From a virus: DNA of 43,313 bases. The translations under genes and the position numbers were made by a program. Under the pieces are notes generated by a model that worked only from the letters and a program-made list of their open reading frames with translations, did no database searches and was not told where the DNA came from. How positions within the stretch are numbered: position 1 is the first letter of the stretch; the number at the start of each line of letters is the position of its first letter. The DNA lies in the IMG/VR virus record IMGVR_UViG_3300042323_000446, positions 1 through 43,313 of that record; one strand, given 5' to 3'. Below, one piece after another: positions 3,001 to 42,222 of this stretch.

Positions 3001-3127
3001 TAGCAACTTCCATCCATCCACCAATACCAAGCACACTGTAATCTGTGCCTTGTACTGAATTTCTAGCGACAGTATAAGGACCTATTGAAAGTTGAGCATT
3101 TAATGGATTTTTATATGGAAACGGCAT
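1..3127 (-). CDS. Giant collagen-like virion/fibre protein, partial (C-terminus outside window)
   Basis: Reading leftward from the ATG at 3127-3125, the frame stays open to the window edge, so at least 1042 residues are present and no stop is seen. The first ~207 residues are non-repetitive, starting MPFPYKNPLNAQLS, and probably fold as a beta-rich attachment domain. From about residue 208 everything is Gly-X-Y repeat: GTS, GSS, GTD, GND, with rare GIS and GVN. That is about 277 or more triplets, collagen-like but without proline. Collagen-like repeats are common in phage tail fibres and head fibres, so an exposed trimeric fibre is inferred. It is the last gene seen of a leftward adhesin cluster, 29 bp after the Thr-Pro stalk gene. 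No Shine-Dalgarno sequence precedes the ATG. The exact virion location is unknown. Confidence 0.8.
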   Translation of the reverse strand, partial: MPFPYKNPLNAQLSIGPYTVARNSVQGTDYSVLGIGGWMEVANLSDLSLTFSGIGLQTLSANTIPINLYIGNGTPFNPSYINLNSDNFSSGRRRIGMIAYVNETGFAYQYQIDNYETLWNAATGATGTVTFNPYDTQVKNNSVAGQNFINAWTGSTIEGVSGTTRTNARWRIFPEDCCLTGGTYFSATSQLDLYNSDGTTVVVTGITASGGGSGTSGSSGTSGSSGSSGTSGTSGSSGSSGNDGSSGTSGTSGSSGSSGTSGTSGSSGSSGSSGSSGNNGSSGTSGTSGSSGISGVNGSSGTSGTSGSSGSSGSSGDSGSSGSSGSSGSSGDSGSSGTSGTSGSSGSSGSSGSSGDSGSSGTSGTSGSSGSSGDSGSSGTSGTSGSSGSSGSSGTSGSSGSSGNDGSSGTSGSSGSSGSSGSSGSSGNDGSSGTSGTSGSSGSSGSSGSSGDSGSSGTSGTSGSSGSSGDSGSSGTSGSSGSSGDSGSSGTSGSSGSSGNDGSSGTSGSSGSSGSSGSSGSSGNDGSSGTSGTSGSSGTSGTSGSSGSSGSSGSSGNDGSSGTSGSSGSSGNDGSSGTSGTSGSSGVSGSSGTSGSSGSSGNDGSSGTSGTSGSSGSSGSSGDSGSSGTSGSSGSSGSSGSSGSSGNDGSSGTSGTSGSSGISGVNGSSGTSGTSGSSGSSGTSGSSGSSGDSGSSGTSGSSGSSGSSGTSGSSGSSGSSGTSGSSGSSGNDGSSGTSGTSGSSGSSGSSGDSGSSGTSGTSGTDGSSGTSGSSGSSGDSGSSGTSGTSGSSGDSGSSGTSGTSGSSGSSGSSGDSGSSGTSGTSGIDGSSGTSGTSGTDGSSGTSGTSGTDGSSGTSGTSGTDGSSGTSGSSGSSGDSGSSGTSGSSGSSGDSGSSGTSGSSGSSGDSGSSGTSGTSGSSGTDGSSGTSGTDGSSGTNGTSGSSGTSGTDGSSGTSGTSGSSGTSGTDGSSGTSGTSGTDGSSGTSGTDGSSGTSGTSGTDGSSGTSGTDGSSGTSGTSGTDGSSGTSGTDGSSGTSGTSG
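2..2500 (-). repeat. Gly-X-Y collagen-like coding repeat array
   Basis: About 2.5 kb of near-perfect 9-nt units in the minus-strand reading frame encode Gly-(Ser/Thr)-(Ser/Asp) triplets. Units are arranged in higher-order blocks of roughly 27 to 54 nt, such as GND-GSS-GTS and GTS-GSS-GDS. Nearly identical blocks recur many times, so the array can probably change length by recombination and may also be misassembled from short reads. It continues beyond base 1. Confidence 0.92.
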
Positions 3128-5241: not shown

Positions 5242-8200
5242 TTAGAAAGGTTTCTCTATTGCTAAACAGATTTCACCCCTTTCTATTATTAGTCTTTTCA
5301 TATCTGAAAAACTTATATAGGCATGTCCTGAAACTCCCCAAGCTTTCCCCCAACTATTTTTAATTCTAAATTGTTTTGTGATGGTGTTCACTCCATTAAT
5401 AACATAAGCGTGTCCTCCCGCAATATGTCCACTTAAACGAATTAAACCATTTTTATTAGGAAAAAACATATTATAATACCAATTGGTTCCAACAACGACT
5501 GGTCCAACATTTAACACAGTATTAATTAGTGTGTTAATATCAAACGCCCATAAGTATGATGATATTTTACCTGAACTCATTAGATATTTTGCACCACCTC
5601 TAACAGACGTACCGTTATACCTTTCACCCGGCCATTCATCAACCTTTTGAGCTTCACGATAAATCAACGATGGTTGGATTATTGGTAAAGCTCCTCTATG
5701 AGTTATTGGCCCATCACAAATCCAATGTGCCCAAGCATAACCAACACATTGCGGTGTGTTGCCTTGATTACCCCACCAAACATTACCATCCCATTCTTTT
5801 TTAGTTATAGTTGTTTTAGGTATTGTTAATTTATCTTGAATTAAATATTTGTTATCTCTTTTGTCCTCAATAAATATTCTACCTAATTTTTGCTCATTAA
5901 ATAAAGTTAGATTATTTGGGTCACAATCACAATTGATATCAACAACTGTTACAGTTCCTCCACCATTAAGTTTAATTACATTGATAGCACATTTATAAGT
6001 TATGGTAACATATAATGGTACATCAATAACTTCAACAGTATTATCACAATATAAAATTTGATACGTTGAACCAGTTCCAGGTCCAAATCCACTATATAAT
6101 TGGAATGTTTTGCAACAAGGTGAACAATCTCCAATACCGGTAGTCGTAAGAAAAAGTGGACCCTCACTACCACTACCGCCACCATATAGACAACTACCTA
6201 TAAGACTTGGTAGTGCCACCCATTGAGCCATTGACCCAATTGGTGTTGGACTATTTATAGGAAGATATGCGAGTGGGTCAGGTAATGGATAATATGTGGT
6301 CATATCCTCTAAAATCCAATAATTATTTATATTATCCCAAGAAATCCTCATTAATAAGGTGGGGGGTGCGAGAGCAAAATAAGTAAAATAATATGATGAT
6401 TTACCATTAATCTGAGGTGAAGGATTTATATTTGATGGTAATACAATTGTACCACTACAAGTCGTTCCTTCATCAATAAAACGAATACACTCTCCAGGTG
6501 TATAAACCGTAGGCGTAGGCGTAGGTGTTGGTGTTGAAGTTGGTGTTGAAGTTGGGGGCCAGCTTACCGATGGTTGTTTTGTTGGTGTAGGCGTTGGCGA
6601 ATATGTGGTTGTAGTTGTTGTTGGTGAATATGTGGTTGTAGTTGTTGTTGGTGAATATGTGGTTGTAGTTGTTGTTGTTAAATTTGAGGTTGTAGTTGTT
6701 GTTGTTAAATTTGCCGTGGTGGTTGTTGTGGTTGTCTCATCGGATATTTTGTAGGTAAAGTCGTTAGGTAAACAAACCGATGTTGAGCAGTCAGGACAAT
6801 CAGGATTAAACATTCTGAAAATATTTTTTAATAAATTAAAGTTGTGTTTTACCTCAGGTGCCGATAATGGGGTAACATACATTCTAAATTGTGAAATAGC
6901 ACCATCAAAAGTTCCCGCAAAATTTTGCTCAATTAATATATTAGTTTTTAATCCACTAAATGTTGTTCCTGATAAATCATTAATTGGGAAATTTTCAGGG
7001 TCTTGTATATATGGTCCGTAAGGTTGTGTTATTGATGAAAAAGTTAAATTTTCTCTAAGTCCTTGAGTACCCCCACCCCACGATATATTAAACGGAACCC
7101 CAACTTGTTTTTCTTTGTCAGTATCTAATCCTCTTGGGATGATTTCCTCAAAATTTTCTATAGTATGGAATAACTTACCATTAACATAAATTTTAAGTCT
7201 TCCGTTTCTGTATAATTTATCAATTAACCATTTTTCATTTAACCTGACCAGTTCGATTTGTTCTGATGGTTTACAGTCAATTTGTGTGTATGGTACAGTT
7301 ATTAATGACGATGCATTATTGGCTAGTGACTCTAAATAAAGTTTTTCAGTTATATCACCAAGTCCTCCTCGATACCATAAATCGCAAGTATCTAACCATG
7401 TATATCTTTCCCATACCGCGTCTACTTGGAACCAATGTTCCTCATCTAACCACGCAGGATTCTCTAATAAACATGTAGGGTAAATTGGCGGCGTACAATA
7501 ATCAACAATAGTGTGTCCTGTAGTGTAAGTAATTCCACTTGTTTCACAAGAGCCTGTAGTAACACAATCTCCTGTAAATTTTAACATTCTAACACCAATA
7601 CCAGGGTTTTTTGGGTCGCCACATAATCTAAAAGATAACGCGTTTGACATAGAATCATATATTGGGTTTGTCTCACAAGTATTTTCAATTGATGTAAATC
7701 CTGTATTACAATTATAACAAGTCGTGGTTGGTGTACAAACATCACATGATGGAGAGCAAACAGGTGGTAGTTCACAATCAGGTATTGGGGTTGGCGTTGG
7801 TGAAGGTGTTGGGGTTGGTTCAATAACCGTACTACATACGTGTGTTTGACACTCCCATCCACAAGTTTCGCATGGGTCTAAATTACAATCACAACCACAC
7901 GTAATTTTTTTTTGTGGGTCTCCCTTACAACTACCACAACCATAATTAACGTGAGGGTCATGGATATTATTCACTGACCTAGGTGGATAAACAAAAATAC
8001 ATCTACTATCCGTAATTGTTCTATTACAACATGCACATGTTTGTAGTTCAGTTAAACCTGATGTAACTCTATTATAACCTGAAAAACATAATGGACTACC
8101 ACTTGCATGGTGATAAAATTTATTTTCAGCTCTAGTCCCAAAATAAAAAAAAGTATTTTTATTATTTGGATAAATTTCATTAAGAGTTGTTTCATTTGGT

Positions 8201-8889
8201 AATGGAGTGTGTTCGTTGAATAATCTTGGTTTTAATACCATCTCAACCGACCACCCTTTATTCATTCTTTCAGGGAAAACTTCATAATCAAACCCAAATA
8301 ACTTATAAAATCCTTGATAAAACCCACCGTATAATTCGTGGTACCTACCTTCAAAAGGGCTTGATTTACTAACAACTTCGTATAACACGGTTTTATTGAA
8401 TCCTGAAAATCTTACATTAGGTGACATAGTGTGACCTGTAACTTGGTGTAACTTAAGTCTTCGGTCATAGTACATTCTATTAAATTTCAAATAATCAGAG
8501 TATAATCCTTTAGTAAATGTTATCGTTTCACCGGTCATTTGGTCGACTAATCCATTATCAATACCTGTTAACCCAATATCACATGATGTTGATGATGAAT
8601 AACAAGTTAAATCTTCATTATTTGGGTTGTAATAATTTTGAGATACAAAAATATTATTATTATTGTATTGTTTATACAAAAGTGTTTGATTTTGAACACT
8701 TAAAGGATTGTTAATGTCAAAATAAATTGGGAGTCTGTCTCCATATGTTTGAGCAATCAAATATGGTGAAAAAACAACTTCTTGATTGTAGTCTTGTTCA
8801 TCTGAGGTCAAAGACATATCACTAGAGTCTAAATTAAGTTTTAGAGACCAATTTGGACGATAATACTGATTTATATTTTGACTTGCCAT
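5242..8889 (-). CDS. Multidomain adhesin with ConA/LamG-like domain and C-terminal papain-like protease
   Basis: This protein has 1215 residues. Residues 1-260 look like an attachment domain. Residues ~265-450 are Cys-rich, with CxxC clusters and a short PTPTPSPTPTP linker near 355-370. Residues ~480-710 look like a ConA/LamG domain (KIYVNGKLFHTIENF; GTFDGAISQFRMYVTPLSA). Residues ~716-797 form a Thr-run and Thr-Pro stalk. After a further beta domain, residues ~1030-1215 match peptidase family C1 (papain). The oxyanion Gln1042 (NQG), nucleophile Cys1048 (QCVGYAWA), His1160 (GGHAYVINGV) and Asn1178 (KNSWGKAWG) are all present with papain-like spacing. No I29 propeptide is seen. The likely role is a tail adhesin that binds glycans and cuts host surface protein, or one that matures itself. 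A terminator follows the gene. Confidence 0.85.
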   Translation of the reverse strand: MASQNINQYYRPNWSLKLNLDSSDMSLTSDEQDYNQEVVFSPYLIAQTYGDRLPIYFDINNPLSVQNQTLLYKQYNNNNIFVSQNYYNPNNEDLTCYSSSTSCDIGLTGIDNGLVDQMTGETITFTKGLYSDYLKFNRMYYDRRLKLHQVTGHTMSPNVRFSGFNKTVLYEVVSKSSPFEGRYHELYGGFYQGFYKLFGFDYEVFPERMNKGWSVEMVLKPRLFNEHTPLPNETTLNEIYPNNKNTFFYFGTRAENKFYHHASGSPLCFSGYNRVTSGLTELQTCACCNRTITDSRCIFVYPPRSVNNIHDPHVNYGCGSCKGDPQKKITCGCDCNLDPCETCGWECQTHVCSTVIEPTPTPSPTPTPIPDCELPPVCSPSCDVCTPTTTCYNCNTGFTSIENTCETNPIYDSMSNALSFRLCGDPKNPGIGVRMLKFTGDCVTTGSCETSGITYTTGHTIVDYCTPPIYPTCLLENPAWLDEEHWFQVDAVWERYTWLDTCDLWYRGGLGDITEKLYLESLANNASSLITVPYTQIDCKPSEQIELVRLNEKWLIDKLYRNGRLKIYVNGKLFHTIENFEEIIPRGLDTDKEKQVGVPFNISWGGGTQGLRENLTFSSITQPYGPYIQDPENFPINDLSGTTFSGLKTNILIEQNFAGTFDGAISQFRMYVTPLSAPEVKHNFNLLKNIFRMFNPDCPDCSTSVCLPNDFTYKISDETTTTTTTANLTTTTTTSNLTTTTTTTYSPTTTTTTYSPTTTTTTYSPTPTPTKQPSVSWPPTSTPTSTPTPTPTPTVYTPGECIRFIDEGTTCSGTIVLPSNINPSPQINGKSSYYFTYFALAPPTLLMRISWDNINNYWILEDMTTYYPLPDPLAYLPINSPTPIGSMAQWVALPSLIGSCLYGGGSGSEGPLFLTTTGIGDCSPCCKTFQLYSGFGPGTGSTYQILYCDNTVEVIDVPLYVTITYKCAINVIKLNGGGTVTVVDINCDCDPNNLTLFNEQKLGRIFIEDKRDNKYLIQDKLTIPKTTITKKEWDGNVWWGNQGNTPQCVGYAWAHWICDGPITHRGALPIIQPSLIYREAQKVDEWPGERYNGTSVRGGAKYLMSSGKISSYLWAFDINTLINTVLNVGPVVVGTNWYYNMFFPNKNGLIRLSGHIAGGHAYVINGVNTITKQFRIKNSWGKAWGVSGHAYISFSDMKRLIIERGEICLAIEKPF
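6599..6730 (-). repeat. 27-nt tandem repeats encoding the Thr-rich stalk
   Basis: Three near-identical 27-nt units, followed by two diverged ones, encode TTTTTTYSP-type and TTTTTTSNL-type segments of the adhesin stalk. Copy number could vary between relatives. Confidence 0.8.
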
Positions 8890-28609: not shown

Positions 28610-29092
28610 ATGAAACAGATAGTTAAACTTAATGAAACACACTTAACTAAACTTATTAAAAAAGTATTAAGTGAACAAGAATCTCAAAGATACATGTTTT
28701 TTAGTAATTTAGAACAAATGAGAAGACAATGTGATTTGTTATTAGATTTAGACCATGATATGGTTGAGTCTATTTTAGAAAATGGACATGACTGGGCTCA
28801 AGACCATATTGCAGAATCTAAAAATAACTTAGACCAAGTATTTGATTTCTTAATGAATGAAACCAAAAAAGACGGTATGGAATTATCTATGTCTATTGAT
28901 GATAAAGATATGGCCATGATGGAGGGTCGTAAAAAAACAGGTACACCCCTTTGTGCAAGAGGTATTGCATCTGCAAAGGCTACATATGACGTATATCCAA
29001 GTGCTTATGCTAATGGTCACGCTATTCAAGTATGTAAAGGAAAAATGAAAGGTCTTGATGGTGAAACACATTGTTCGGGAGCTTATTGTTAA
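28610..29092 (+). CDS. Putative head-packaged protein with LxE leader and YPSAYAN motif
   Basis: In this 160-residue protein, residues 6-23, KLNETHLTKLIKKVLSEQ, form a basic amphipathic leader ending LSE-Q. It is nearly the same as an internal segment of the protein at 29842-30663, and similar to T4 capsid-targeting sequences cut by gp21. The middle is helical and acidic. The C-terminus (~107-150) has LCARGIASAKATYDVYPSAY followed by ANGHAIQVCKGK, a YPSAYAN motif that I recall in many phage proteins of unknown function. Packaging in the head and cutting after Glu22 are inferences. It starts 1 nt after the preceding stop. Confidence 0.65.
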   Translation: MKQIVKLNETHLTKLIKKVLSEQESQRYMFFSNLEQMRRQCDLLLDLDHDMVESILENGHDWAQDHIAESKNNLDQVFDFLMNETKKDGMELSMSIDDKDMAMMEGRKKTGTPLCARGIASAKATYDVYPSAYANGHAIQVCKGKMKGLDGETHCSGAYC

Positions 29093-29133
29093 AAAAAAAT
29101 ATATAATTAATTTTTTTATTTAAATAATATCAT

Positions 29134-29141
29134 TATATTTG
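29134..29141 (+). promoter_or_regulatory. Possible host-type -7 box TATATTTG
   Basis: A perfect match to the Bacteroidota -7 consensus TAnnTTTG, 23 nt before the ATG at 29165. No clear TTG at the -33 position is seen. It could let the two following genes be expressed early by host RNA polymerase. Confidence 0.4.
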
Positions 29142-29164
29142 TAAATAAATACTAATATAAGATT

Positions 29165-29560
29165 ATGAAACAAATTATTCACAAATTAAAACGATTAATC
29201 CAAAAACAATATATTAAATTCTATCGGTCTTCAACCCCAAAAATTACTACATACGAAAAAGATTGTGTTTCTATTTGTGAAAAATTAATAAAAAAAAATG
29301 AAACTGTTTTATTGTTAACCCCAATCTCAAACAAACGTTATATTAAAAACGAAGAAGACCAAATTTTCGTAATTTTAGAAAATTATAGCGTAAAAATAAT
29401 CAACCACGTTTATTCGTACACTGTAATATTAGGAGATAATTCGTGGAATTCTGTAGTTACTTTATTTGATTCAGAAGTTGAGTCAAGACGTAATAAATTT
29501 GAAAAAGAAATTACTTCTAATATCAAATATTCTATTAAAAAAATTTTAGAAAAAATATAA
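29165..29560 (+). CDS. Basic protein, unknown
   Basis: This 131-residue, Lys-rich protein begins MKQIIHKLKRLIQKQYIKFY. It has a beta-rich middle (VLLLTPISNKRY; DQIFVILENYSVKIINHVYS) and ends in a basic helix (SIKKILEKI). No family is recognised. With the secreted-protein gene 24 nt downstream it forms a two-gene unit behind a host-type promoter, so an early, host-directed role is possible. Confidence 0.6.
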   Translation: MKQIIHKLKRLIQKQYIKFYRSSTPKITTYEKDCVSICEKLIKKNETVLLLTPISNKRYIKNEEDQIFVILENYSVKIINHVYSYTVILGDNSWNSVVTLFDSEVESRRNKFEKEITSNIKYSIKKILEKI

Positions 29561-29584
29561 CAAAAACCTAATAAACTAAATCAT

Positions 29585-29845
29585 ATGAAAAAATTATTTA
29601 TCGCACTAGCATTGTTCACTTCTTGTAATTTGTTTTCACAAACAATTACAAATACGGTTAATCCAAAAACTGATACATTAGTTTATATTGGTTATGACAT
29701 CAATCAGTTTAGTGCAGAATATGCTCAAGAAATGGCCACTTGGTCTAATGAAAAAATTGATTGGTTTAATAAAACTTTTTGTTACACACGAGGAAACTTT
29801 ACAATCCCCGACAAACCTATCCAACCTTACCAAAAAGAAGATTAA
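29585..29845 (+). CDS. Small secreted or periplasmic protein
   Basis: In this 86-residue protein, the first 19 residues, MKKLFIALALFTSCNLFSQ, form a signal peptide: two Lys, a hydrophobic core, then a polar end. FTSC could be a weak lipobox with Cys14 as the lipid anchor; a plain signal peptidase I site after the Gln is also possible. The mature part is short and polar with one Cys. A phage protein sent to the host envelope could block superinfection or aid lysis, but nothing specific is recognised. It shares a TTAA double stop with the opposing gene. Confidence 0.7.
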   Translation: MKKLFIALALFTSCNLFSQTITNTVNPKTDTLVYIGYDINQFSAEYAQEMATWSNEKIDWFNKTFCYTRGNFTIPDKPIQPYQKED

Positions 29846-30663
29846 AGTTTATTTAGGTAATCGGCCCACTCTTTCTCTGTACCAGCGTCAATTGAACAGA
29901 AATGATTAACGCTAATTCTATTACTAATCAAATAAATTTTTTGATTCGGGTTCGCCATTTTACTTTTTTCTAAGAAATCTTTATTCATCTTAGCCGCAGG
30001 AACAACATCTAAGATTACTGTGGAAGGTTCATATGATTCTCTTGGTATGGTTGGGGATGGTGTTAAAAATATTCTTTTAAGTCCACCACCATTTAATCCT
30101 CCGTACATATCTTCTTCAGAATCTAAAGTTAACCCACTTTCTCTAAATGAATTGTTTTTACTTTGACAAAAAAGATTAAGTACCTTTCCTTTAGGTGCGG
30201 TTTGTTCTGTTAAAACTCGTTTAACAATTTTTATTAAATCGTTTTCGTTAAGTTTAATTACTTTTTTTTCACCAACAACCACAGTATCTTTTTTTATTTC
30301 AATCCATTCTTTTAATGTTGTGATTGGCACAATACTTTTTTTACCACCAGGAGTTTGATTAATATTATTCCCATCTTCATCACTAAATGTTGACATAGGG
30401 TTATTTTTAATATAGTTAGAAATCTTTTTTACTTTATTCTCCATCTTTTTAATTTTTTTTTTAGGTGTACTCATCTTACCGCCATAACTATCGTATTCCA
30501 ACTCAGCATCAATATACTTTGATACGGGTGTTGTAAATGGTTGTAATGACTCTTTACTAAATTCCCTAACACCAGGTTGCAAAGGAGAAACATAGGACCC
30601 TCTACCACCACTACTATCAGAAGTTGCCTCAAGCAATATTTTCTTTATTAATTGATTTAGCAT
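29842..30663 (-). CDS. Putative head-packaged protein with two LxE leader-like sites
   Basis: This 273-residue protein starts MLNQLIKKILLEATSDSSGG: an amphipathic leader and an LLE-ATSD junction that matches the capsid protein's own predicted site LINE-ATSD. A second leader-like segment, KLNENDLIKIVKRVLTEQ (137-154), copies the leader of the protein at 28610. Protease processing could thus yield two pieces: ~13-153 and a C-terminal ~120-residue domain with VLNLFCQSKNN and IYLISNRISVNHFC. No enzyme motif is recognised. A GTATTTAT motif lies 18 nt upstream. It converges with the secreted-protein gene by 4 nt. Confidence 0.65.
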   Translation of the reverse strand: MLNQLIKKILLEATSDSSGGRGSYVSPLQPGVREFSKESLQPFTTPVSKYIDAELEYDSYGGKMSTPKKKIKKMENKVKKISNYIKNNPMSTFSDEDGNNINQTPGGKKSIVPITTLKEWIEIKKDTVVVGEKKVIKLNENDLIKIVKRVLTEQTAPKGKVLNLFCQSKNNSFRESGLTLDSEEDMYGGLNGGGLKRIFLTPSPTIPRESYEPSTVILDVVPAAKMNKDFLEKSKMANPNQKIYLISNRISVNHFCSIDAGTEKEWADYLNKL

Positions 30664-30681
30664 AGAATTTTTAATATACTT

Positions 30682-30689
30682 ATAAATAC
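30682..30689 (-). promoter_or_regulatory. Putative late promoter motif GTATTTAT
   Basis: One base from the common octamer, in the orientation of the leftward 273-residue gene and 18 nt before its ATG, inside a 48-bp divergent gap. Confidence 0.4.
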
Positions 30690-30711
30690 ATCAAAAAAAG
30701 ATATTATTACA

Positions 30712-30945
30712 ATGGAAGAACAACAATTATTTGGAAAACTATTCGACACAATACCACTACTAACTGAAGACCATTTAGATGTGTTACTACAGTCTATGGA
30801 TAAAGACAACGCATCATACATATTAATACAGGCAGTTAAGAAAGCGTACCACGATGGTGTGTATTCTTTAGGTGAGTCTGAAGTTGTGTCAAGGGCAATT
30901 AGAGTTATGTCAAAACAAGTAATTAAAGACGAAACAAAAGATTAA
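30712..30945 (+). CDS. Small helical protein, unknown
   Basis: This 77-residue, acidic, helical protein begins MEEQQLFGKLFDTIPLLTED. It is a lone rightward gene between two leftward genes: divergent from the 273-residue gene and convergent with the PG-binding gene, with which it shares a TTAA double stop. No family is recognised. The isolated, opposite orientation resembles that of the bS21 gene. Confidence 0.6.
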   Translation: MEEQQLFGKLFDTIPLLTEDHLDVLLQSMDKDNASYILIQAVKKAYHDGVYSLGESEVVSRAIRVMSKQVIKDETKD

Positions 30946-31478
30946 GCATCAGTTGATGGGTCACCACCCCCTGATGTCTGTGACGACGAATTATTTGTTT
31001 TTGCCACAACAGGTGCTCCAACAGGTGCTCCAACAGGTGCTCCAACAGGTGCTCCAACAGGTGCAACATTTGTTGTTACCCCTAAAGCAGCAATTATCGC
31101 AGCAATAGTTTTAGGACCTATTTTACCATCAACCACCAACCCTGATTGTTTATTAGTATTTAACCAAGTTTGAATATCTTTAGCCGAGTAGTTTGTTTTA
31201 CCAGGAGTCGCAGGTGTTAATGCAGATTTATCTTGCGGATTTTTCGCTTGTAAATAATCAGGAGCACCATCACCATCTGAATCAGCATTAAATCCAGAAA
31301 GACCTGGACCTGCGGGTGTACCAGGAGTCGCAGTTGTTGCCGTAGTAGGGACAGGGATTTCCCCATCTTCATATGGACCCGCCTCTGAAATAATTTTTTT
31401 AATAGTTTTTTCTCTAATACTTTCATGTAAATTTAAAATCCTATTTCTTTCTTCAGTATTTAAATTAAATCTATTCAT
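30942..31478 (-). CDS. Putative head-packaged protein with peptidoglycan-binding domain
   Basis: This protein has 178 residues. Leader residues ~1-32 (ERNRILNLHES; EKTIKKIISE then AGP) end in an IxE site like those cut by prohead protease. A DSDGDGAPDYL loop (67-77) resembles a calcium-binding thrombospondin-3 repeat. Residues ~96-133 match a PG_binding_1 domain, with VDGKIGPKT (116-124) as hallmark. Residues ~139-158 are VGAP repeats and the tail is disordered. A PG-binding protein carried in the virion could hold or loosen the cell wall at entry. No catalytic domain is present. Confidence 0.7.
   Translation of the reverse strand: MNRFNLNTEERNRILNLHESIREKTIKKIISEAGPYEDGEIPVPTTATTATPGTPAGPGLSGFNADSDGDGAPDYLQAKNPQDKSALTPATPGKTNYSAKDIQTWLNTNKQSGLVVDGKIGPKTIAAIIAALGVTTNVAPVGAPVGAPVGAPVGAPVVAKTNNSSSQTSGGGDPSTDA
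31009..31064 (-). repeat. 12-nt tandem repeat encoding VGAP linker
   Basis: Four perfect 12-nt units plus a partial fifth encode the (G-A-P-V) linker after the PG-binding domain. Perfect identity suggests recent expansion. Confidence 0.9.
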
Positions 31479-32391: not shown

Positions 32392-34242
32392 TTATCTCAA
32401 TTCTCTTAAATCGAATGTACGAACACCATCAACAGTAATACGTCCATAAAAACGGTTGTTGACCATCTTTTTTGCGTATCTCGTCATTATTCCTTTTATC
32501 GGAGTAAAGTTGAACGGATTGTACATTGTAGGTGTTAATTGTAGAGGTACATACGGTGCGTAGATGTAACCTGTGTCTAACAATGATGTTCCTTTGTGTC
32601 CTACTAACACTGTGTTAGCTGGGAAGTAAGGGTCACGGTAAACTTGGTAACGTCCTGCAAGAGTACCAACTCTTTCAATACCCATGTTATACTGGTCTTG
32701 CTCAGGAGATGCGTTAGATACGTGGAAGTACTCTAAATCATCAAAAATAGCTGAAATCTCAGAAGAAACTACAATCCAGTTAGCTCCACCTCTTAATGTA
32801 GATTTGTGGATTTGTGCTGACAATTGGTTAATTGCAGTAATTAATGTTTGATTCCAATCTTTTTGAGTATAAGATGTAGTTTGAGAAATTCTTCTCCATC
32901 CGTTGTAATCCCAACGTAAGTTCCATGCTGCTCCTTTACGTAAATCTCTTAAGATTTCACGGTCAATTTCAGCCGCAACTTGTTCAGACAATAAAGCTGT
33001 TAATTCAGCTTCAGCATCGATGTTGTGGAATGCAGCAACGTCTTGAGCTAACTCAGGAGACCATTGTGCTCTTAATTTTCTTTCTGTAACAGATACAGTA
33101 ACTGAATCTAAGTCGAAAGAAACCTCACCTATTTTGTCTTCAAATTCTAATTCTTCGTAACGTCTGAACGCTGCGTAGAATGATGTTCCTGAAGCCGCTT
33201 CAGTAATAGTAGTACCTGTGTAACCATCTAAAGATGTTGAATCACAATCAGCACATACTGGACAAGATAAATCAACTTCTAAGTAGATACATCCGTTAGC
33301 ATCACATACGTTTTTAAACGAACCACCGTTACCAGTTGATGCCCAAGTAGTTTGAGTAGTGCTACCGTAAGAAACGATACCTTTACCATATTGTTGAGTA
33401 ACAACTCTGAACAATAAAGCTCCTGTTGATACTGGACATGGTGTTGTTGCAGAAACATCTAAACCTGCACCTGTGAAGATAATTAAATCAGATAAGAAAG
33501 ATTCTGTATCCATTTCATTACCATCAGGTCCGATTAATTTACCTGCTCCTGTGTCAGCAAAACCACACATTTTAACGATAACTTTTCTTGTGTTACCTGA
33601 AGGGATAGTTGCAGCACCTGCAGTATCACCTGAAATATTAGCATCAACTAATAAACCGTTAGTCCATTTTTGGATTGAGGTTGTAGCAGTGATTGCTGAC
33701 CAACGACCTTTTGAATAATCGAATAAACCTGCTGGGTCTAAACCTGGTTCAGTTCCTTCGTAGAATAAGTCATAAAGGTTTTTACTTACCGCTCCAGCTC
33801 CTGTGTAACCTGCATTTTGAGATGTTGGTCCGTTTGGTGCTCCTAGTGGTGCGTAGTGGTCTCCTGAAGATACATCACTCCATTGAGTGTTAGTACCACC
33901 TGAATAACCTTGAATTTTAGGTACAAAGTAGAATAATTTACCGATTGGTAAGTTCATAGCTTGTACTGATACGATGTCATTCGCTAATAATTTAGAAAAT
34001 ACACGTCTTACGATAGGGAATACAACAGTTTCAAATGAACCTGAAGACCCGTCAGACGTTGCTTCGTTAATTAAGAAAGACGCTTGGTTCTCATATAATT
34101 GAGCTACGTTTTCTTTTAGGTGACCTTTAAGGCCTTCTAGGAATCCTAATTTATCCCATTTGTTAATTGTATCTTCTTTGATAACTTTAAGGTGTTTTAA
34201 CCCGATGTTACCAACAAGACCTGATTCTAATAATGCTCCCAT
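32392..34242 (-). CDS. 23: Major capsid protein, gp23-like
   Basis: This 616-residue protein has a T4-like propeptide of about 60 residues (FLEGLKGHLKENVAQLY) ending FLINE-ATSD, where the prohead protease probably cuts after Glu60. T4 gp23 is cut at FLTE-AE, residue 65. Next comes FPIVRRVFSKLLANDIVSVQ, matching the gp23 segment after its site. Near residues 375-430, VSVTERKLRAQWSPELAQDV and AEIDREILRDL match the HK97-fold core. It is longer than T4 gp23 (521), mostly through a central insertion with a CPVCADC cluster (~330). It follows the scaffold gene by 38 bp, with no motif of its own visible, so it is probably co-transcribed. Confidence 0.92.
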   Translation of the reverse strand: MGALLESGLVGNIGLKHLKVIKEDTINKWDKLGFLEGLKGHLKENVAQLYENQASFLINEATSDGSSGSFETVVFPIVRRVFSKLLANDIVSVQAMNLPIGKLFYFVPKIQGYSGGTNTQWSDVSSGDHYAPLGAPNGPTSQNAGYTGAGAVSKNLYDLFYEGTEPGLDPAGLFDYSKGRWSAITATTSIQKWTNGLLVDANISGDTAGAATIPSGNTRKVIVKMCGFADTGAGKLIGPDGNEMDTESFLSDLIIFTGAGLDVSATTPCPVSTGALLFRVVTQQYGKGIVSYGSTTQTTWASTGNGGSFKNVCDANGCIYLEVDLSCPVCADCDSTSLDGYTGTTITEAASGTSFYAAFRRYEELEFEDKIGEVSFDLDSVTVSVTERKLRAQWSPELAQDVAAFHNIDAEAELTALLSEQVAAEIDREILRDLRKGAAWNLRWDYNGWRRISQTTSYTQKDWNQTLITAINQLSAQIHKSTLRGGANWIVVSSEISAIFDDLEYFHVSNASPEQDQYNMGIERVGTLAGRYQVYRDPYFPANTVLVGHKGTSLLDTGYIYAPYVPLQLTPTMYNPFNFTPIKGIMTRYAKKMVNNRFYGRITVDGVRTFDLRELR

Positions 34243-34280: not shown

Positions 34281-35753
34281 TTATTTTAATTTTGACATTA
34301 AATCTTTCATTCTTAAGAACTGAGGATTTTCATATGTTTTAGACTCAATCAAATTAGCCGATGACCCTGTCGATGGAGAACTTTGAATAGTTCTTTCAAT
34401 TGACTCATTCATTGGTTGATTTGTCTTAGACGAAAGGTTATCTTTTAATGTCTTATACAAGTTTTTAGATTCTTTAATAGTTTCAACACTATCAAAACGT
34501 CTTAAGATATTAATCTTTTCTTGTTTTGATGTTGAATGTTCTGTGAACAAACGTGTAGCGTATGCTAAGTTTGAGTTGAACACTGCAACTTCGTTTAATT
34601 TATTTCTAAAAATGTTAAGTGCTTTTCTGTACTCTTCATTTTTTTCTCTAAGAACTTGTAATTCTCTGTTATCAATACTTTCTTTTTGGATTGCCGTGTT
34701 AAATTTTGAATGAGCTCTTGGTTTTGGTAAACCGCCAGTTCTAAAATTAGAACCACTTCCTAAAGTTCTTGATGCTTCTTTGGTTTCAACCTTTTTAACA
34801 GTTTTCATATCACCGTCAAGATTTTCACCCTCTTTATATTCAAATTTTGCTTTACCAGTACCCATGGTTTTATTAACTGTTCTTTTTACAGTTTTAAAAC
34901 CACCTTCTTGGTTAGGTTTGTTTGAATATATTTTTTTCTTATTTGGATTTCCAATTCCGACACCTTTAGGTTTGATTGACATTTTCTTAGATTCCATTAC
35001 AGGTTCATCATCGTCGTATAGACCCATGTCTTCTTCGCCTTCTTGTTCGTCAAATTCAATTTCATAAACAATTTCTTCACTGTCCATTTCTTCTTCTTCT
35101 TCGTCAAATTCTATTTCATAAACAATTTCTTCACTGTCCATTTTAGGTTCGTCCATTCCAAAATCCATTTCTTCTTCTTCGTTAGTGTTAAATACTTTAT
35201 CGATGATGCTATTAATGTCGTCTTCGTCTTCGTCTTCGTCTTCCATGCCAAAATCTGACATATCATCCATTTCGAACATTTCTGTTTCATCAACGTATTC
35301 GTCACCTTCTCCGACAATCATATACTCTTTTTCAGAATCTTTAAGATTGATATTACCTGAATTATCTTTGGTAACCACGATATTATCTTCAGGACCCATT
35401 AAGCTGAATACACGTAAGATTTCATCCTCGTCATCAACGTCAGTAAGGTCAATAGTTTCGTCGTCATCCATAGAATCTTCATCATCCATAGAATCTTCAT
35501 CATCCATATCTAAATTATCCATATCCAAGTCCAACCCTTCTTCGTCAGACATATCGTCTTCCATTTCAGGTTCGTCCATTTCAATGTCTGTTTCAATCTC
35601 ATCTTCTTGTTCAGTCAGAGACTCTTTTACTAGTTCTTTGATTTCTTGCTTCATAGTTGAAGCAAGTATTCCTTTTGCATTTTCAGCAACTGCATCCTCT
35701 AAATTTTTCATTTGGATGATTGCTTCTTCAACTAAAGATTTTTCTTTTGCCAT
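34281..35753 (-). CDS. 22: Prohead core scaffolding protein, gp22-like
   Basis: This 490-residue protein has an N-terminal helical part with KELVKESLTEQEDE (39-52), a likely protease site. A very acidic region follows (~50-260: DMDDEDSMDDEDSMDDDE), then a basic Gly/Lys segment (~265-340) and a helical C-terminus (REKNEEYRKALNIFRNKLNE). It lies between the protease and capsid genes, as T4 gene 22 does. Its core would be digested during maturation. Acidic scaffold sequence diverges quickly, so order and composition carry the call. Confidence 0.8.
   Translation of the reverse strand: MAKEKSLVEEAIIQMKNLEDAVAENAKGILASTMKQEIKELVKESLTEQEDEIETDIEMDEPEMEDDMSDEEGLDLDMDNLDMDDEDSMDDEDSMDDDETIDLTDVDDEDEILRVFSLMGPEDNIVVTKDNSGNINLKDSEKEYMIVGEGDEYVDETEMFEMDDMSDFGMEDEDEDEDDINSIIDKVFNTNEEEEMDFGMDEPKMDSEEIVYEIEFDEEEEEMDSEEIVYEIEFDEQEGEEDMGLYDDDEPVMESKKMSIKPKGVGIGNPNKKKIYSNKPNQEGGFKTVKRTVNKTMGTGKAKFEYKEGENLDGDMKTVKKVETKEASRTLGSGSNFRTGGLPKPRAHSKFNTAIQKESIDNRELQVLREKNEEYRKALNIFRNKLNEVAVFNSNLAYATRLFTEHSTSKQEKINILRRFDSVETIKESKNLYKTLKDNLSSKTNQPMNESIERTIQSSPSTGSSANLIESKTYENPQFLRMKDLMSKLK
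35047..35141 (-). repeat. Direct repeat within scaffold gene
   Basis: Two 41-nt copies (35047-35087 and 35101-35141) that differ at one base encode MDSEEIVYEIEFDE twice. An 18-nt repeat near 35465-35510 likewise encodes DEDSMD twice. Recent internal duplication is the simplest reading. Confidence 0.85.
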
Positions 35754-36141: not shown

Positions 36142-36897
36142 TTAATTTCCTAAATAATCGGTTAATTTTCTCATTAAGTCAAGTGATTTGTTACCATTTT
36201 CACCAACATTTCTTTCTACCGACATTTTTTTCTCTTCTTCCAAGTTCTCGTCAAAGTTAAATCTATCTTCAGGATTTTGGAATAAGTATGCTCCAGGTGT
36301 TGATGGTGATGATACTAAGTCAAAACAGATTAATTCAAAATCTTCTTGTACTTCATTCTGTTCACCAACTTTTTTAAGGGAACCCACCCCTCTTGAAGAA
36401 ATCCCTAAGGTAACACCTTGTCTTAGGTAGTTAGCCGCCAAATCTCCTTTAGTTGATACAATACCTCTTTCGTGGAATCCTGGTGAAGTGAGTAATTGTA
36501 TCTTACCCATTAATATAGGTCCTTCCCACCATATTTCATTTATTGCGTGAGATACTCTATCTAAGTCAATTAATGATGATTCAGGATGATTTAACTCTGA
36601 AAGAGCTGTACCTTTTTCTATCATTTTTTTATAGTTTTCCGCTTCTCTTTTTAAAATACGTTCAGGATATATTCTACCATTTCTATTTGGGGTGTTATAT
36701 TTTTGTAATACCGCATAAAATTCAAATGGTTTAGAATGGTCTAACATATTACCTTTAGATTCTCTAATTAACTTTTCGTTACGATTGTCATTTGGATTAA
36801 TATATCCCGCATCGTATTCAACAAGAATTGATTTTTTATTCAACTCGTTATTAATATTAATTTTTAAATTATCCATTTTTTTACCACAAATTTTCAT
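36142..36897 (-). CDS. 21: Prohead core protease, gp21-like
   Basis: This 251-residue protein is a serine protease of the T4 gp21 type. FYAVLQKYNTPNRNGRIYP (60-78) is the family's N-terminal signature. LSELNHPESSLIDLDRVSHA (99-118) carries the probable catalytic His104, and LGISSRGVGSL (164-174) the probable Ser167 or Ser168. It would cut capsid, scaffold and leader-bearing head proteins after (L/I)xE. A polar tail (~215-251) may be removed by self-cleavage. It precedes the DUF4494-like and scaffold genes, the T4 order 21-22-23. Confidence 0.88.
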   Translation of the reverse strand: MKICGKKMDNLKININNELNKKSILVEYDAGYINPNDNRNEKLIRESKGNMLDHSKPFEFYAVLQKYNTPNRNGRIYPERILKREAENYKKMIEKGTALSELNHPESSLIDLDRVSHAINEIWWEGPILMGKIQLLTSPGFHERGIVSTKGDLAANYLRQGVTLGISSRGVGSLKKVGEQNEVQEDFELICFDLVSSPSTPGAYLFQNPEDRFNFDENLEEEKKMSVERNVGENGNKSLDLMRKLTDYLGN

Positions 36898-37484: not shown

Positions 37485-37679
37485 ATGTTAATAGTAAAAG
37501 TAGGAAAGAATGTAACTCTTGAAAAAGCGTTAAAAATTTACAAAAGTAAAGTTATAAAGACAAGACAAAGTAGAGAATTAAACGAGAGAAAAGAATTCCA
37601 AAAAAAATCCGTTAAAAGGAGAAATGAAATTTCAAAAGCAAAATACGTACAAAAAAAATATAAATCAAACAATGATTAA
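37485..37679 (+). CDS. rpsU: Phage-encoded 30S ribosomal protein bS21
   Basis: This 64-residue basic protein reads MLIVKVGKNVTLEKALKIYK, then a basic helix with SRELNERKEFQKKSVKRRNE and a C-terminal AKYVQKKYK. These are the features of bS21, including the conserved (K/R)xEFxKKSVKRR-type core. Length fits the Bacteroidota form (about 64; E. coli has 71). Tyr54 lies where Bacteroidota bS21 is reported, as I recall, to contact the hidden anti-Shine-Dalgarno sequence. No Shine-Dalgarno precedes it. It is a lone rightward gene inside the leftward head operon and shares a TTAA double stop with the gene opposite. Confidence 0.88.
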   Translation: MLIVKVGKNVTLEKALKIYKSKVIKTRQSRELNERKEFQKKSVKRRNEISKAKYVQKKYKSNND

Positions 37680-38395
37680 AGATTCTCATTCAAACTTTTA
37701 AGTTTGAAATAAGTTAACTTGTCGTATTTTTCTGATATTACTTTATCAAGAGTTTCATCAATTCTTATTTGAGTTGACTTGTCCTTATTATTATTTTTCA
37801 TTTCAGTTAATTTATTCACAACACTTTCTTTAACATTATCAAATTTTTGATTTAAAGTAACATCATCTTCAGATAAAAATTTTGTTAATTCTTTTTTATC
37901 TGACTCACTTAATGACTCAATAAAATTTGAGATTGTTTTATTTGCAATGTTTACCATAGAGGTTAACGGAATTTGAACGGTGTCTGTTTTCTTGATAGGT
38001 AATTTCTTAATAGTTTCAGAAATAAGTTTTTTACTTGTTATTCTTGATTCAATTGTTAAAATATCTCTTGAGAATAAATTATCAATATTATTATACTGAT
38101 TAACAACTTTAGAATTTTTAACCCATAACTTTAGTGGGGTAATATCCGACTCTTGTATTTTATTAACGGTATTTTCATAAATGGTAATACATTCATTCAC
38201 ATAATCGTCAACAATAGATTCTGCCAATCCTTTATTAGAAGATAAATCATCATACAAATAAAAAAGTTTGCGTATCTTTTTATTTTCTAAAACTAACTTT
38301 TTAAATTTTTTGAATTCTTCTTTAAATGTGTCATTTTTATATGACTCTAATAACACATCTTCAATCTTTGATTTAATTATTCCAAAATTTGTCAT
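37676..38395 (-). CDS. Putative head core / internal protein with LxE leader
   Basis: This 239-residue protein is highly helical and charged, with no recognised fold. The start MTNFGIIKSKIEDVLLESYK resembles the leader-plus-LxE (VLLE-S, cut after Glu17) of the other proposed packaged proteins. It lies directly after the portal gene, where T4 has the small core proteins gp67 and gp68, which are also digested by gp21. A prohead core role is inferred. An ATATTTAT motif lies 12 nt upstream, overlapping the portal stop. Confidence 0.6.
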   Translation of the reverse strand: MTNFGIIKSKIEDVLLESYKNDTFKEEFKKFKKLVLENKKIRKLFYLYDDLSSNKGLAESIVDDYVNECITIYENTVNKIQESDITPLKLWVKNSKVVNQYNNIDNLFSRDILTIESRITSKKLISETIKKLPIKKTDTVQIPLTSMVNIANKTISNFIESLSESDKKELTKFLSEDDVTLNQKFDNVKESVVNKLTEMKNNNKDKSTQIRIDETLDKVISEKYDKLTYFKLKSLNENL

Positions 38396-38407: not shown

Positions 38408-38415
38408 ATAAATAT
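38408..38415 (-). promoter_or_regulatory. Putative phage late promoter motif ATATTTAT
   Basis: The exact octamer overlaps the first base of the portal stop and lies 12 nt before the ATG at 38395. It sits within a longer near-palindrome ATTTATAAATAT. Confidence 0.5.
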
Positions 38416-40238
38416 CAATCTTTTAGAATTTTGTTTAATTCTTTCTCTATTTCACCTAAAGAATTTCTCGCTTTAGATAAATCAATAAATGAATCTGACT
38501 CTGTTAAGTTATCACTTTCTAATAAAATTGATAAATTATCACGTTTAAATGACTCAGGTGTTATCCCCGCGTCACCACCTATTTCAGGACCTGGAGGTGG
38601 TGGTGGTGCTCCTCCGCCAGTATCTTCAGGACCTCCTAATCCTCCTAAAGGTGGTGGGGTCGCTCCCACAGTTTGGGTTGCGCCTGATTTAACACCATAT
38701 AATTTGTCAATATTATCAAATACTCCTGTATGGTTGATAATAGTTGCGGTATTAGTTAATTCTGCCCCAACGGCTTTCTCAACACGTTGTTGTTGCAAAT
38801 CTAATTTAATTTCTTCATCCGAGAATCCTAGTACATGTTTCTTAGCCCAAGTCACTGACACTGGTGCAATACCCTCGATTGCCGTTACAGCATCTTTGTA
38901 TAATAAAACTTTTTCTTTCCAAACATCAATTTTTAATAAATCGGCTTGTGTTGATGGATTAGTTAATCCTAAGGTAAAGTTTGATAATTCATCTTCAAAA
39001 CCTAATAAGAATAAATGTATGATGGCGATTTTATTCATTTCTGCAATCATAGATTTTTGAATTCTATTAATTGTTCTTGCAAAACGGATGTCTTGTAATG
39101 ATAAATTCTTACCATCACCAACCACTTCCTCAAACCCTAAAAACGCCTTAGGTACCCGAAGTGCGGTTAATAATTTCTTTTGGATGTATTCAATATCGGC
39201 AATCTCAGAAAGGTTCTGAGCTCCAGGTAAAGTATCAATTGGATTTGGCGCCGCTTGGTCACGAACAGGAATAAAATAATCTTGGTCAACCGCCATTTGG
39301 TTAAATCTCATATCAACATTACCTGATTGACTATCAACCACCTGACTACGTTTAAATTTGTTTGCAACACGTTGTACATATGCCTCAACATCTTTATCGT
39401 CCATGTTACCAACAAAAACTTTAAATACACGTCTTTCAGGTGCTCTTGAAGTCCGATAGATTAACATTGCGTCTTCCGACAATAATAATTGTTTCCAAAT
39501 ACGTCTTGCTTTTTCTAACATAGAAGTACCATAAGGTAATTTTCTATCATCACCTAATAATCTAAAGTGAGCAATTTCCCATGAATTAAATTCCATGTCT
39601 TTAGCCTTCCACTTAAATCTTAAACCTTTGTTTTCTACGGGTTCCTCAACGTTTGCAGATTTTGCCGCCATACCTCTTTCAAGTCGTTCAATCTCAATAT
39701 TTGGTAATTGCATACAACCAACAATACCTTTCTCGGCATCTAATTTTAAATAAACAAAATTATCACCGTATTTTGCGGTATTTCTTGTCCACATTGGTAA
39801 ATTAGTATTGATGTCTAAAACATTATTAAATAAATCAATTAAGATTGATTTAATACGTTTAGATTCTGAATAAATTTGTAACATGTATCCATTTTGGTCA
39901 ACAGTTGTTGATTCTTCACCGTAGATATCTAAAGCCGCCGAAATTTCGGGAGTATATTCCATAGATTCGTAATCATAAAATGATGCTAATCTTGTTGGTT
40001 CATAATAAACCGCTTGAGTATATAAGTTACTCTCAATTTTTGTCCATTGATTGGCTAAGTAAAACGTTTGTTGAGCTTGTAGTTTTTCTCTTTCGTATTC
40101 CTGTTTTGATGATGTTTTTAATAATTCAGTCTTGTCTAAATTATATGTTGGATAATCTTGATTTAACAGGGCGTTAGGCCCAAAAGCTTGGGATAACCTC
40201 TGCCAAACTGTAAATTGATTATTTTGATTATTTTCCAT
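38415..40238 (-). CDS. 20: Portal protein, gp20-like
   Basis: This 607-residue protein resembles T4 gp20. PEISAALDIYGEESTTVDQN (~95-114) is the conserved start of the clip/wing domain. TNLPMWTRNTAKYGDNFVYL (~145-165), EFNSWEIAHFRLLGDDRKLP with YGTSMLEKARRIWKQLL (~215-255) and PGAQNLSEIADIEYIQKKLL (~335-360) follow the gp20 order. The C-terminal ~60 residues are Gly/Pro-rich (GGGAPPPPPGPEIGGD) and disordered. Twelve copies would form the packaging channel. Position between terminase and head genes agrees. No octamer motif is seen just upstream. Confidence 0.9.
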   Translation of the reverse strand: MENNQNNQFTVWQRLSQAFGPNALLNQDYPTYNLDKTELLKTSSKQEYEREKLQAQQTFYLANQWTKIESNLYTQAVYYEPTRLASFYDYESMEYTPEISAALDIYGEESTTVDQNGYMLQIYSESKRIKSILIDLFNNVLDINTNLPMWTRNTAKYGDNFVYLKLDAEKGIVGCMQLPNIEIERLERGMAAKSANVEEPVENKGLRFKWKAKDMEFNSWEIAHFRLLGDDRKLPYGTSMLEKARRIWKQLLLSEDAMLIYRTSRAPERRVFKVFVGNMDDKDVEAYVQRVANKFKRSQVVDSQSGNVDMRFNQMAVDQDYFIPVRDQAAPNPIDTLPGAQNLSEIADIEYIQKKLLTALRVPKAFLGFEEVVGDGKNLSLQDIRFARTINRIQKSMIAEMNKIAIIHLFLLGFEDELSNFTLGLTNPSTQADLLKIDVWKEKVLLYKDAVTAIEGIAPVSVTWAKKHVLGFSDEEIKLDLQQQRVEKAVGAELTNTATIINHTGVFDNIDKLYGVKSGATQTVGATPPPLGGLGGPEDTGGGAPPPPPGPEIGGDAGITPESFKRDNLSILLESDNLTESDSFIDLSKARNSLGEIEKELNKILKD

Positions 40239-40445: not shown

Positions 40446-40453
40446 ATAAATAT
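40446..40453 (-). promoter_or_regulatory. Putative phage late promoter motif ATATTTAT (portal unit)
   Basis: The exact octamer overlaps the first base of the terminase stop and lies 14 nt before the 51-residue gene; it could also serve the portal gene. Confidence 0.5.
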
Positions 40454-42222
40454 TATCTAACACCAAATAACCAACCATACTTTTGATAATCTTCTCTAGA
40501 CATGTTCTGACTGTTATACTGATTAATTCTTTCAGACATGTGCGGTATAACAGGATTAAATTCTAATTTTTTTGATGTTTGGTCATTATTATTAACCGCC
40601 CAAGCCTCAATCATCGCTTTAGTGTGCTCAACAACCTTAGTCAAATTACTAAATGAAGACTCGGCAACGTAAGTTGCCATAGCCACCGACATAATTAAAT
40701 CGTCATGATGTCCTTTTTGGTGGTCAGGACGGCCATTAATGTAGATGAACGTATTCATTTCATTAAAAAGTCTTGAACTATAAATTTTAAATCCATGTCT
40801 CATCCCCTCTTCAAATGACGAGATAATTTGAACCCTTTTATTGTTAAAGTTAATCCCTGGTATTTTTTCATGTGCCTTGGCATCGTACTTCCACTTATTA
40901 GCAGTATCGACACCATCAACATATAAGTCTTTGTAACCCATTTCCTGTAATTTTCTTGATGTGGAAACACCCATACCGCCAGTAATATCAATTACAATAA
41001 AACATGAATACATGTTGGCCCATTTATAACAAATTTCCGCCATAGTATCTGGTGGTAATTTACCAACATATTCTGCAACCTGTTCTCTCTCATCAAAATC
41101 AATAATTTGAAAGGAGCTAAAATCTTCACTATCTCCACGAGATACGTCAACCCCCATAATGTATTTATGGCCAACAACAGGTTCTTTCCAAATCCATAAA
41201 GCATTACCCATCATTTTATTCTTGGGTTCTGTAATAGAATTTTCTCTAATAGTTTGTAACATTTTAGAATCAAATACGTTATCACCTGAACCTAAGAAGT
41301 TACATTCCAACTCCTGAGATACTTTACGTTTATCATATTTTAATTTCTTAACCATCGCCTCAAACCAAGAAGAACAAGGTTTATAACCTTGGTCCATTAA
41401 TTTTTTTAGTTCACTATAATCTCTTTCGGACGCTGGTATATGTGACCAACTAAGTATATCTTTTTCACTATACTCTTCTTTATTTAAAAGATAGTGAATC
41501 ATATCCTCGGTTTTAACTAAATATAAATCTTTTGTATAACGAGGGTCACGAAACCAATACATTTCAGTAATCCTAAAGTCATTCATGTTTCTTAATGCTT
41601 GGTCGTATATTTCATAATAAATTCGGTCATAACCATTTGGCGTTGAGACTACAATTACTTTACCTCCTGTAGATAGGGACGCCATACAAGCCGCCCAAAA
41701 ATCACTGTCGGCCTCGATAAACGCCGCCTCATCAAATACAAGTATTGTAGGAGTAAATCCACGTAAGGCATCTTTAGATGTTGCAACGGCTTTAACCTCA
41801 CTACCGTTATTTAATTTATAATGTTTTTGTGAGTTTTTTTCAACTGCAAAGTCAACCCCAACCCAACTTGGCCATTGACCAACAAAGGCTCTAATCTTGT
41901 TCGCCATTTCTAATGACGTATCAAGTTTATTAGCAATTATAAGAACTTTTTCGGGTTTATTTTTTTTAGCAAAAGAAAGTTTCATCGAAGCCCAAGCTGC
42001 GGTAACTGTAGATACTCCCGCTTGTCGATATTTTAGGGCGATGTTTTCGTTATAATTCTCGTAATCTTCAAGTAATGATGCTTGGTCAGGAAATAATTCT
42101 AATGGTACGTATTTAGAAACTGTATTGTCGTAGGTTTGTAGATAAGTTCTTAACGCGTATTTTACATCCTTATGACATTTTACGTACTCTATTAGTACCT
42201 GTTCTTTGGATAAATTTAACAT
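40453..42222 (-). CDS. 17: Terminase large subunit, gp17-like
   Basis: This 589-residue protein is the DNA-packaging motor. The ATPase half has a Walker A-like RQAGVST (66-72), shorter than the classical P-loop as in T4 gp17, Walker B TILVFDEAAF (159-168; Asp164, Glu165) and coupling motif STPNG (193-197). The RNase H-like nuclease half has GVDVSRGDSED with Asp359, the VIDITGGMG strand near 405, and HHDDLIMS with Asp507/Asp508 as the third acidic site. It starts 7 nt after the preceding gene and probably shares its message. Confidence 0.95.
   Translation of the reverse strand: MLNLSKEQVLIEYVKCHKDVKYALRTYLQTYDNTVSKYVPLELFPDQASLLEDYENYNENIALKYRQAGVSTVTAAWASMKLSFAKKNKPEKVLIIANKLDTSLEMANKIRAFVGQWPSWVGVDFAVEKNSQKHYKLNNGSEVKAVATSKDALRGFTPTILVFDEAAFIEADSDFWAACMASLSTGGKVIVVSTPNGYDRIYYEIYDQALRNMNDFRITEMYWFRDPRYTKDLYLVKTEDMIHYLLNKEEYSEKDILSWSHIPASERDYSELKKLMDQGYKPCSSWFEAMVKKLKYDKRKVSQELECNFLGSGDNVFDSKMLQTIRENSITEPKNKMMGNALWIWKEPVVGHKYIMGVDVSRGDSEDFSSFQIIDFDEREQVAEYVGKLPPDTMAEICYKWANMYSCFIVIDITGGMGVSTSRKLQEMGYKDLYVDGVDTANKWKYDAKAHEKIPGINFNNKRVQIISSFEEGMRHGFKIYSSRLFNEMNTFIYINGRPDHQKGHHDDLIMSVAMATYVAESSFSNLTKVVEHTKAMIEAWAVNNNDQTSKKLEFNPVIPHMSERINQYNSQNMSREDYQKYGWLFGVR

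Follow-up and report, generated by a model that had tools for sequence, protein, structure and literature searches.

Interchangeable leaders with a common hydrophobic-x-Glu end on unrelated proteins of T4-like phages: probable prohead-targeting propeptides

We analyzed a stretch of 43,313 nt from the IMG/VR record IMGVR_UViG_3300042323_000446 (positions 1 to 43,313; hereafter the window), which, judged by its genes, is DNA of a T4-like myophage, and found that it encodes proteins carrying short leaders that also occur on a large number of otherwise unrelated proteins of related IMG/VR phages. These leaders end with a hydrophobic residue, a free residue and a glutamate (hydrophobic-x-Glu). From sequence comparison, we consider it very likely that they are prohead-targeting propeptides, with which the proteins would be loaded into the head, cut after the glutamate by an S77 protease and released with the DNA. 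The original prediction, made from the window alone, proposed that one (L/I)xE leader is found on unrelated proteins of a phage with a gp21-type protease and would serve for head loading, cutting and release at or in the host. What it observed at its core holds, on a wider scale than originally noted. The idea of one such leader on unrelated proteins is strongly supported by the unrelated protein clusters, leader swapping, module junctions and S77 protease described below, although not every example listed could be retained.

Two near-identical leaders, KLNETHLTKLIKKVLSEQ and KLNENDLIKIVKRVLTEQ, are present in the window, as originally reported. The first belongs to a small YPSAYAN-family protein of 160 aa (28610–29092, plus strand), and the second lies inside a protein of 273 aa (29842–30663, minus strand), at residues 137–154. 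We scored the window proteome with a position-specific matrix for the leader core that had been derived from relatives. It gave values of 23.0 at residue 143 of the 29842 protein and 20.9 at residue 12 of the 28610 protein, with a third significant site (14.2) at the N-terminus of the 29842 protein itself (MLNQLIKKILLE/ATSD, residue 2; here and below, a slash within a sequence marks the predicted cut). The top score across the 200 shuffled window proteomes used as the null was 12.6. The leader of the 28610 protein has 22 codons (28610–28675, plus strand; MKQIVKLNETHLTKLIKKVLSE/Q), with the predicted cut after Glu22, and is followed by a helical domain that is conserved and by a C-terminal part that contains cysteine.

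Searches with DNA patterns and hidden Markov models (HMMs), the scans of which gave lower bounds, defined this type-1 leader as a sequence of 22 residues with the consensus MKKIIRLTESDLTRIVKRVIxE/Q. At a threshold of 10 bits, the leader HMM hit the open reading frames (ORFs) of the relatives 280 times and the same ORFs reversed not once. The final leader position was occupied by Glu in 247 of 249 sequences, this column not having been used for selection, and position 20 (residue −2) was always I, L, V or M. Information content was mostly 2–4 bits per leader position (columns 8–16 being biased by the search pattern, and columns 1–7 and 17–22 unbiased), with only 1.25 bits at position 21. Past the leader, position 23 favored Gln, and only 0.1–0.5 bit was found from position 24 onwards. 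The leader is amphipathic (helical moment p 0.02–0.04 for three long-leader sequences), and its constraint is exerted at the protein level, because codon choice varies within it: synonymous codons differ while the amino acids are held. The 28610 family was found in more than 599 viral stretches, and its leader has 22 residues in some members and 13–14 in others (MRNLDRIIKKVIRE), mostly 13–22 overall. Glu22 was invariant in 40 members of this family, and the conserved body of the protein starts a few residues further on.

The 247 proteins with an N-terminal type-1 leader from the related IMG/VR phages fell into 143 clusters without detectable similarity in the mature part, which agrees with the original proposal of a shared leader on diverse cargo. 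Of 20 related records, 15 were matched by the leader profile; a record of 108 kb had 16 sites, and one of 281 kb had 10. Among the matches listed for the TESDLTRIV DNA pattern in viral contigs, all those in frame (137/137) were located 6–8 residues after a Met. Equal occurrence of the leader in cellular proteins, named at the outset as an outcome that would speak against the proposal, was not observed: the type-1 profile was found in none of 297 Bacteroidota genomes, nor did it match any of 50 random viral records. The TESDLTRIV pattern gave 14 matches in 84,980 bacterial and archaeal genomes, none of them a leader. In the 14 cellular genomes where the pattern had matched, the leader profile found nothing apart from a single weak and partial hit (18.5 bits, E 0.008, positions 6–16), the positive control in this profile search giving 16.

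A second leader type, with the consensus MKKFLITEEEKxRILxMHxxATxxQYLxE/Q, was present in 78 proteins from 48 unrelated clusters; a hydrophobic-x-Glu followed shortly after the motif in 77 of the 78, at exactly the same spacing in 50. This type includes the N-terminus (MNRFNLNTEERNRILNLHESIREKTIKKIISE/AGP; 31383–31478, minus strand) of a protein with a peptidoglycan-binding-like domain at residues 102–129 (30942–31478, minus strand). The original prediction had related this start to the leader of the 28610 protein; it differs from the type-1 leader (matrix score 1.6), but it does end in hydrophobic-x-Glu and represents a widespread leader in its own right. A rarer type-3 leader, MKKxILxEEIxxMKYLLGYKRGVVISE/Q, was found in 7 proteins. 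Type-3 leaders (MKYLLGYKRGVVISE/Q) were observed at loci L166 (1503–2459), L518 (2758–3405), L489 (2429–3115), L057 (9931–10554) and L120 (3506–4738), and in the L166 protein a type-2-like start precedes the type-3 leader.

When types 1 and 2 were merged, the 325 proteins formed at least 176 cargo clusters, and 13 of these 176 contained both leaders. The leaders are thus interchangeable, since the same cargo cluster can carry either of them; the clearest swapped pairs were 47–94% identical in their mature parts, and more distant pairs about 30%. Three proteins had a type-1 leader directly before a type-2 tail (RQYLME, SRHYLIE and SRQYLKE), and these hybrids are apparent relics of leader replacement. 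Since types 1 and 2 replace each other and have only the terminal hydrophobic-x-Glu in common, the best explanation is that they serve equally for targeting and share one kind of cut site.

The 29842 protein is, from its module layout, a polyprotein of the gp23 region whose modules each follow a hydrophobic-x-Glu. In the window, all on the minus strand, it consists of a short leader (30628–30663), module A (ATSDSSGGRGSYVSP...; 30271–30627), an internal type-1 leader (EKKVIKLNENDLIKIVKRVLTE/Q; 30205–30270) and module C (QTAPKGKVLNLFCQ...; 29845–30204), a variable C-terminal cargo. Its relatives contain module A (ATSD...RGSYxAP), an optional repeat A' (GEYNGP), module B (VWFGKKKKPKGS...) and variable C-terminal parts; in the window copy, the type-1 leader and module C stand in place of module B, and other family members carry another module, or none, at the position of module C. 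A hydrophobic-x-Glu was found at a near-fixed distance before module A in 30/30 cases, before A' in 21/21 and before B in 49/50, the background in random windows of the same lengths being 28%, 25% and 9%, respectively; these counts were made without selecting on the cut site and include near-identical relatives, so the events are not independent. The gene was located downstream of the gp23 gene and on the same strand in all 52 loci containing both, often as the next gene, and the mature start of the protein (ATSD) matches that of gp23 after its predicted cut (INE/ATSD). At loci L057 and L052, module-A proteins have in place of module B a C-terminal cargo with an HExxH-like motif (VYILFHELRHEQQ), which is possibly a metallopeptidase. 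Two other module-A proteins (L136, 10992–12068; L120, 1951–2643) bear a leader-like sequence at their extreme C-terminus, possibly a targeting tail; T4 Alt is also processed at its C-terminus (PMC9026906).

The head genes of the window provide the protease and further candidate substrates. The S77 prohead protease of the T4 gp21 type (36142–36897, minus strand; PF03420, E 1e-22; T4 gp21, 5jbl, E 5e-14) retains the catalytic positions as His104 and Ser168, both conserved in the clade. The major capsid protein gp23 (32392–34242, minus strand; PF07068, E 5e-74), which was aligned to T4 gp23, has a pro-region of 60 residues ending INE/ATSD (34063–34242, minus strand), and its mature N-terminus is predicted to be ATSDGSSGSF. 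This site reads INE/AT in 60 of 79 gp23 sequences and INE/AS in 2 more, and the alignment places it at the position of the T4 cut. Between the protease and gp23 lies a candidate scaffold or core protein (34281–35753, minus strand), for which no Pfam or PHROG match was found and which has a conserved LVKESLTE48/Q. A candidate prohead core protein (37676–38395, minus strand) has a conserved VLLE17/S (74 distinct N-termini). Both had been listed with the shared leader, which the matrix did not find in either (best site −4.3 in the 37676 protein), but their hydrophobic-x-Glu sites are kept across the families, as VLLE/S in the latter and as LVKESLxE/Q in the former (70 distinct N-termini). The start of the protein at 10534 scored only 0.1 and had no homologues in the fetched loci, so that this WYL-like protein, originally counted as leader-borne cargo, is without a supported leader. 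A leader common to the 10534, 37676 and scaffold proteins was therefore rejected on matrix score.

Among the 27 records that bear the leader and are at least 100 kb long, 20 had the S77 protease; the seven without it also lacked gp23 and are therefore probably fragments missing the head region. By comparison, it was present in 9 of 50 random viral records, including 2 of the 7 of at least 100 kb. The difference was significant once the records without a head module were left out (Fisher p = 0.0003). This co-occurrence is consistent with the proposed model and is not independent proof of it.

We propose that otherwise unrelated cargo proteins would be carried into the head during its assembly by a short amphipathic helix at their N-terminus, which has three interchangeable forms and would bind the scaffold core. 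The phage S77 protease would then cut after the terminal hydrophobic-x-Glu, releasing mature proteins that would begin with QESQRYMFF..., ATSDSSGGRGSY..., QTAPKGKVLNLF... or AGPYEDGE..., and that would leave with the DNA at infection. The same scheme would apply to the 29842 protein, with several modules and a number of these cut sites. We also lean, with less confidence, towards a wider reading, in which three interchangeable leaders of unrelated sequence and a multi-site polyprotein make up a dedicated, modular delivery system of a large Bacteroidota phage clade, with dozens of unrelated effectors per virion, the largest repertoire inferred for any phage group, and leaders exchanged by recombination.

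Several observations weigh against these proposals. Some leaders are internal or C-terminal, which is unexpected for a simple N-terminal propeptide. The AlphaFold model of the 28610 protein has a helix at residues 9–22, ending at Glu22, with moderate confidence only (a fold search with this model gave no PDB match), and the model of the 29842 protein was unusable. With all 27 records included, the comparison of S77 frequency with the seven large random records was weak (Fisher p = 0.07). Furthermore, the S77 proteases of the leader-bearing records form one clade, 56–83% identical to that of the window, so the co-occurrence of leader and protease may partly reflect ancestry. Neither the type-1 nor the type-2 leader was found in isolated phages by tblastn, and a search of the literature found no virion proteome for the clade. 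Finally, the only recurrent recognized domains in the cargo bind peptidoglycan.

The strongest alternative agrees with the proposed mechanism as far as targeting and cutting, but takes the proteins to be core or assembly factors that are kept in the head or lost at maturation and never delivered. We regard this as a less probable but serious contender. In T4, IPIII has an effect on head assembly (PMC9026906), the polyprotein occupies the gp23 region at every one of the 52 loci, and no recognizable host-directed enzymatic domain was found in any cargo with Pfam, PHROGs or PADLOC. However, the hundreds of unrelated, patchily distributed small proteins resemble accessory effectors rather than assembly parts, and the closest analogues, T4 Ip1–3, are injected anti-restriction proteins (PMC12373910). 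It is improbable that the leader is instead a permanent docking helix, tethering diverse proteins uncut to the scaffold or a compartment, even though it is amphipathic and conserved over its full length, as a binding peptide would be, and cleavage itself is inferred rather than directly observed. Two or three unrelated leaders converge on a terminal hydrophobic-x-Glu with a free residue between, conservation stops after residue 23, the 28610 family holds its Glu while the rest of the leader changes, and the polyprotein junctions bear the same motif, all of which point to a cut. A mobile 5' gene cassette (a recombination or translation-start element) without a targeting role is the least credible explanation, for although hybrid leaders and the somewhat lower synonymous variety at many leader positions than in gene bodies indicate that recombination does occur, the codons nevertheless change among synonyms under a fixed amino acid sequence, the end of the element is marked by a motif of the protein and not of the DNA, and one and the same cargo is found with either of two unrelated leaders.

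Searches of the cargo with Pfam, PHROGs and PADLOC revealed almost nothing beyond peptidoglycan-binding and LysM domains, and single weak domain matches were treated as noise. The recurrence of the peptidoglycan-binding domains suggests that some of the cargo may act in the periplasm. Proteins with peptidoglycan-binding or LysM-like domains and no obvious catalytic domain were observed with both leader types (L229, 4952–5320; L468, 6111–6518; L218, 9602–9961), and such cargo may help ejected proteins or DNA to cross the cell wall. The (L/I)xE motif was slightly depleted inside the cargo (0.94 of expectation, versus 1.15 in other ORFs), a difference not used as evidence.

In T4, internal proteins (IPs) enter the prohead core by means of a short propeptide, gp21 cuts after Glu, in Alt also, and injection of the mature proteins follows; residues 4 and 7 of IPIII are important for its targeting, residues 8 and 10 for its processing (PMC9026906, PMC5694885). 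Ip1–3 have no mutual similarity except for the leader, and once injected they inhibit three different restriction enzymes, each a particular Type IV enzyme; T4-related phages carry at least 10 Ips, many of them found via the signal sequence (PMC12373910). The proteins described here resemble IPI–III and Alt: small proteins with nothing else in common share a short N-terminal propeptide, whose last residue is a Glu after which gp21 (S77) cuts in T4 and is predicted to cut here, and the phages are of the same type, with gp20, gp21 and gp23. However, the capsid-targeting sequences of T4 have 10–19 residues, and by inspection the leaders look unrelated to them, only the terminal hydrophobic-x-Glu being alike. 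T4 has three IPs and Alt, whereas here there are up to 16 leader sites per record, three leader classes and the cargo clusters counted above, together with internal leaders and polyproteins, in uncultured Bacteroidota phages. The inner head and ejection proteins of phiKZ and SPN3US, also encoded by large genomes, are cut after Glu by a related prohead protease, but the motif differs (A-x-E or S-x-E), the propeptides are mostly long and, except for the paralogues gp53 and gp54, no common leader is present on unrelated proteins (PMC5694885). Packaged proteins that carry a cleavable capsid-targeting propeptide are already known, and those studied here would belong among them. New would be their scale, the use of unrelated leaders that can replace one another, the presence of a polyprotein, and the group of hosts. 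We found no earlier description of these leaders in a literature search largely outside subscription journals. In three fetched regions of Flavobacterium phage immuto, the closest isolate found by protease, the HMM detected no leader, and a gut-style leader variant gave only chance-level tblastn hits (E 5–10) against isolated phages.

Injected phage proteins are usually hard to recognize, being small and unlike anything known. With a leader that can be read in raw sequence, the hypothetical proteins of abundant lake phages would become recognizable as probable injected effectors, each with its N-terminus predicted exactly. If the proposed mechanism is true, the 176 clusters would form a large and so far unused source of candidate anti-defense and takeover proteins for Bacteroidota, and proteins could be loaded into phage heads with the aid of the leaders.

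The large terminase (40453–42222, minus strand) and the portal (38415–40238, minus strand) were named from sequence and gene order. A gene for ribosomal protein bS21 (37485–37679, plus strand; PF01165) sits between the portal and protease genes, on the opposite strand. According to PMC9723584, myophages with predicted freshwater Bacteroidetes hosts have the same bS21 arrangement in their terminase-portal-protease-gp23 region. Because of the bS21 gene and the matching gene order, the window very probably comes from this bS21-encoding clade. That report proposes the packaging of bS21 as a possibility; in the part of it covered here, the neighboring genes are termed hypothetical proteins, and no leaders or packaged set are mentioned. 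The bS21 of the window has no leader and would therefore, on the proposed mechanism, not be loaded by the leader route. Further from the head genes, the minus strand encodes a long protein with collagen-like GTSGTSGSSG repeats, open at the left end of the window (1–3100) and a probable fiber protein, and a protein of 1215 aa (5242–8889) with linkers rich in Thr/Pro and, at its C-terminus, a peptidase domain of the papain family (PF00112, E 6e-5), which is probably an adhesin or a structural enzyme.

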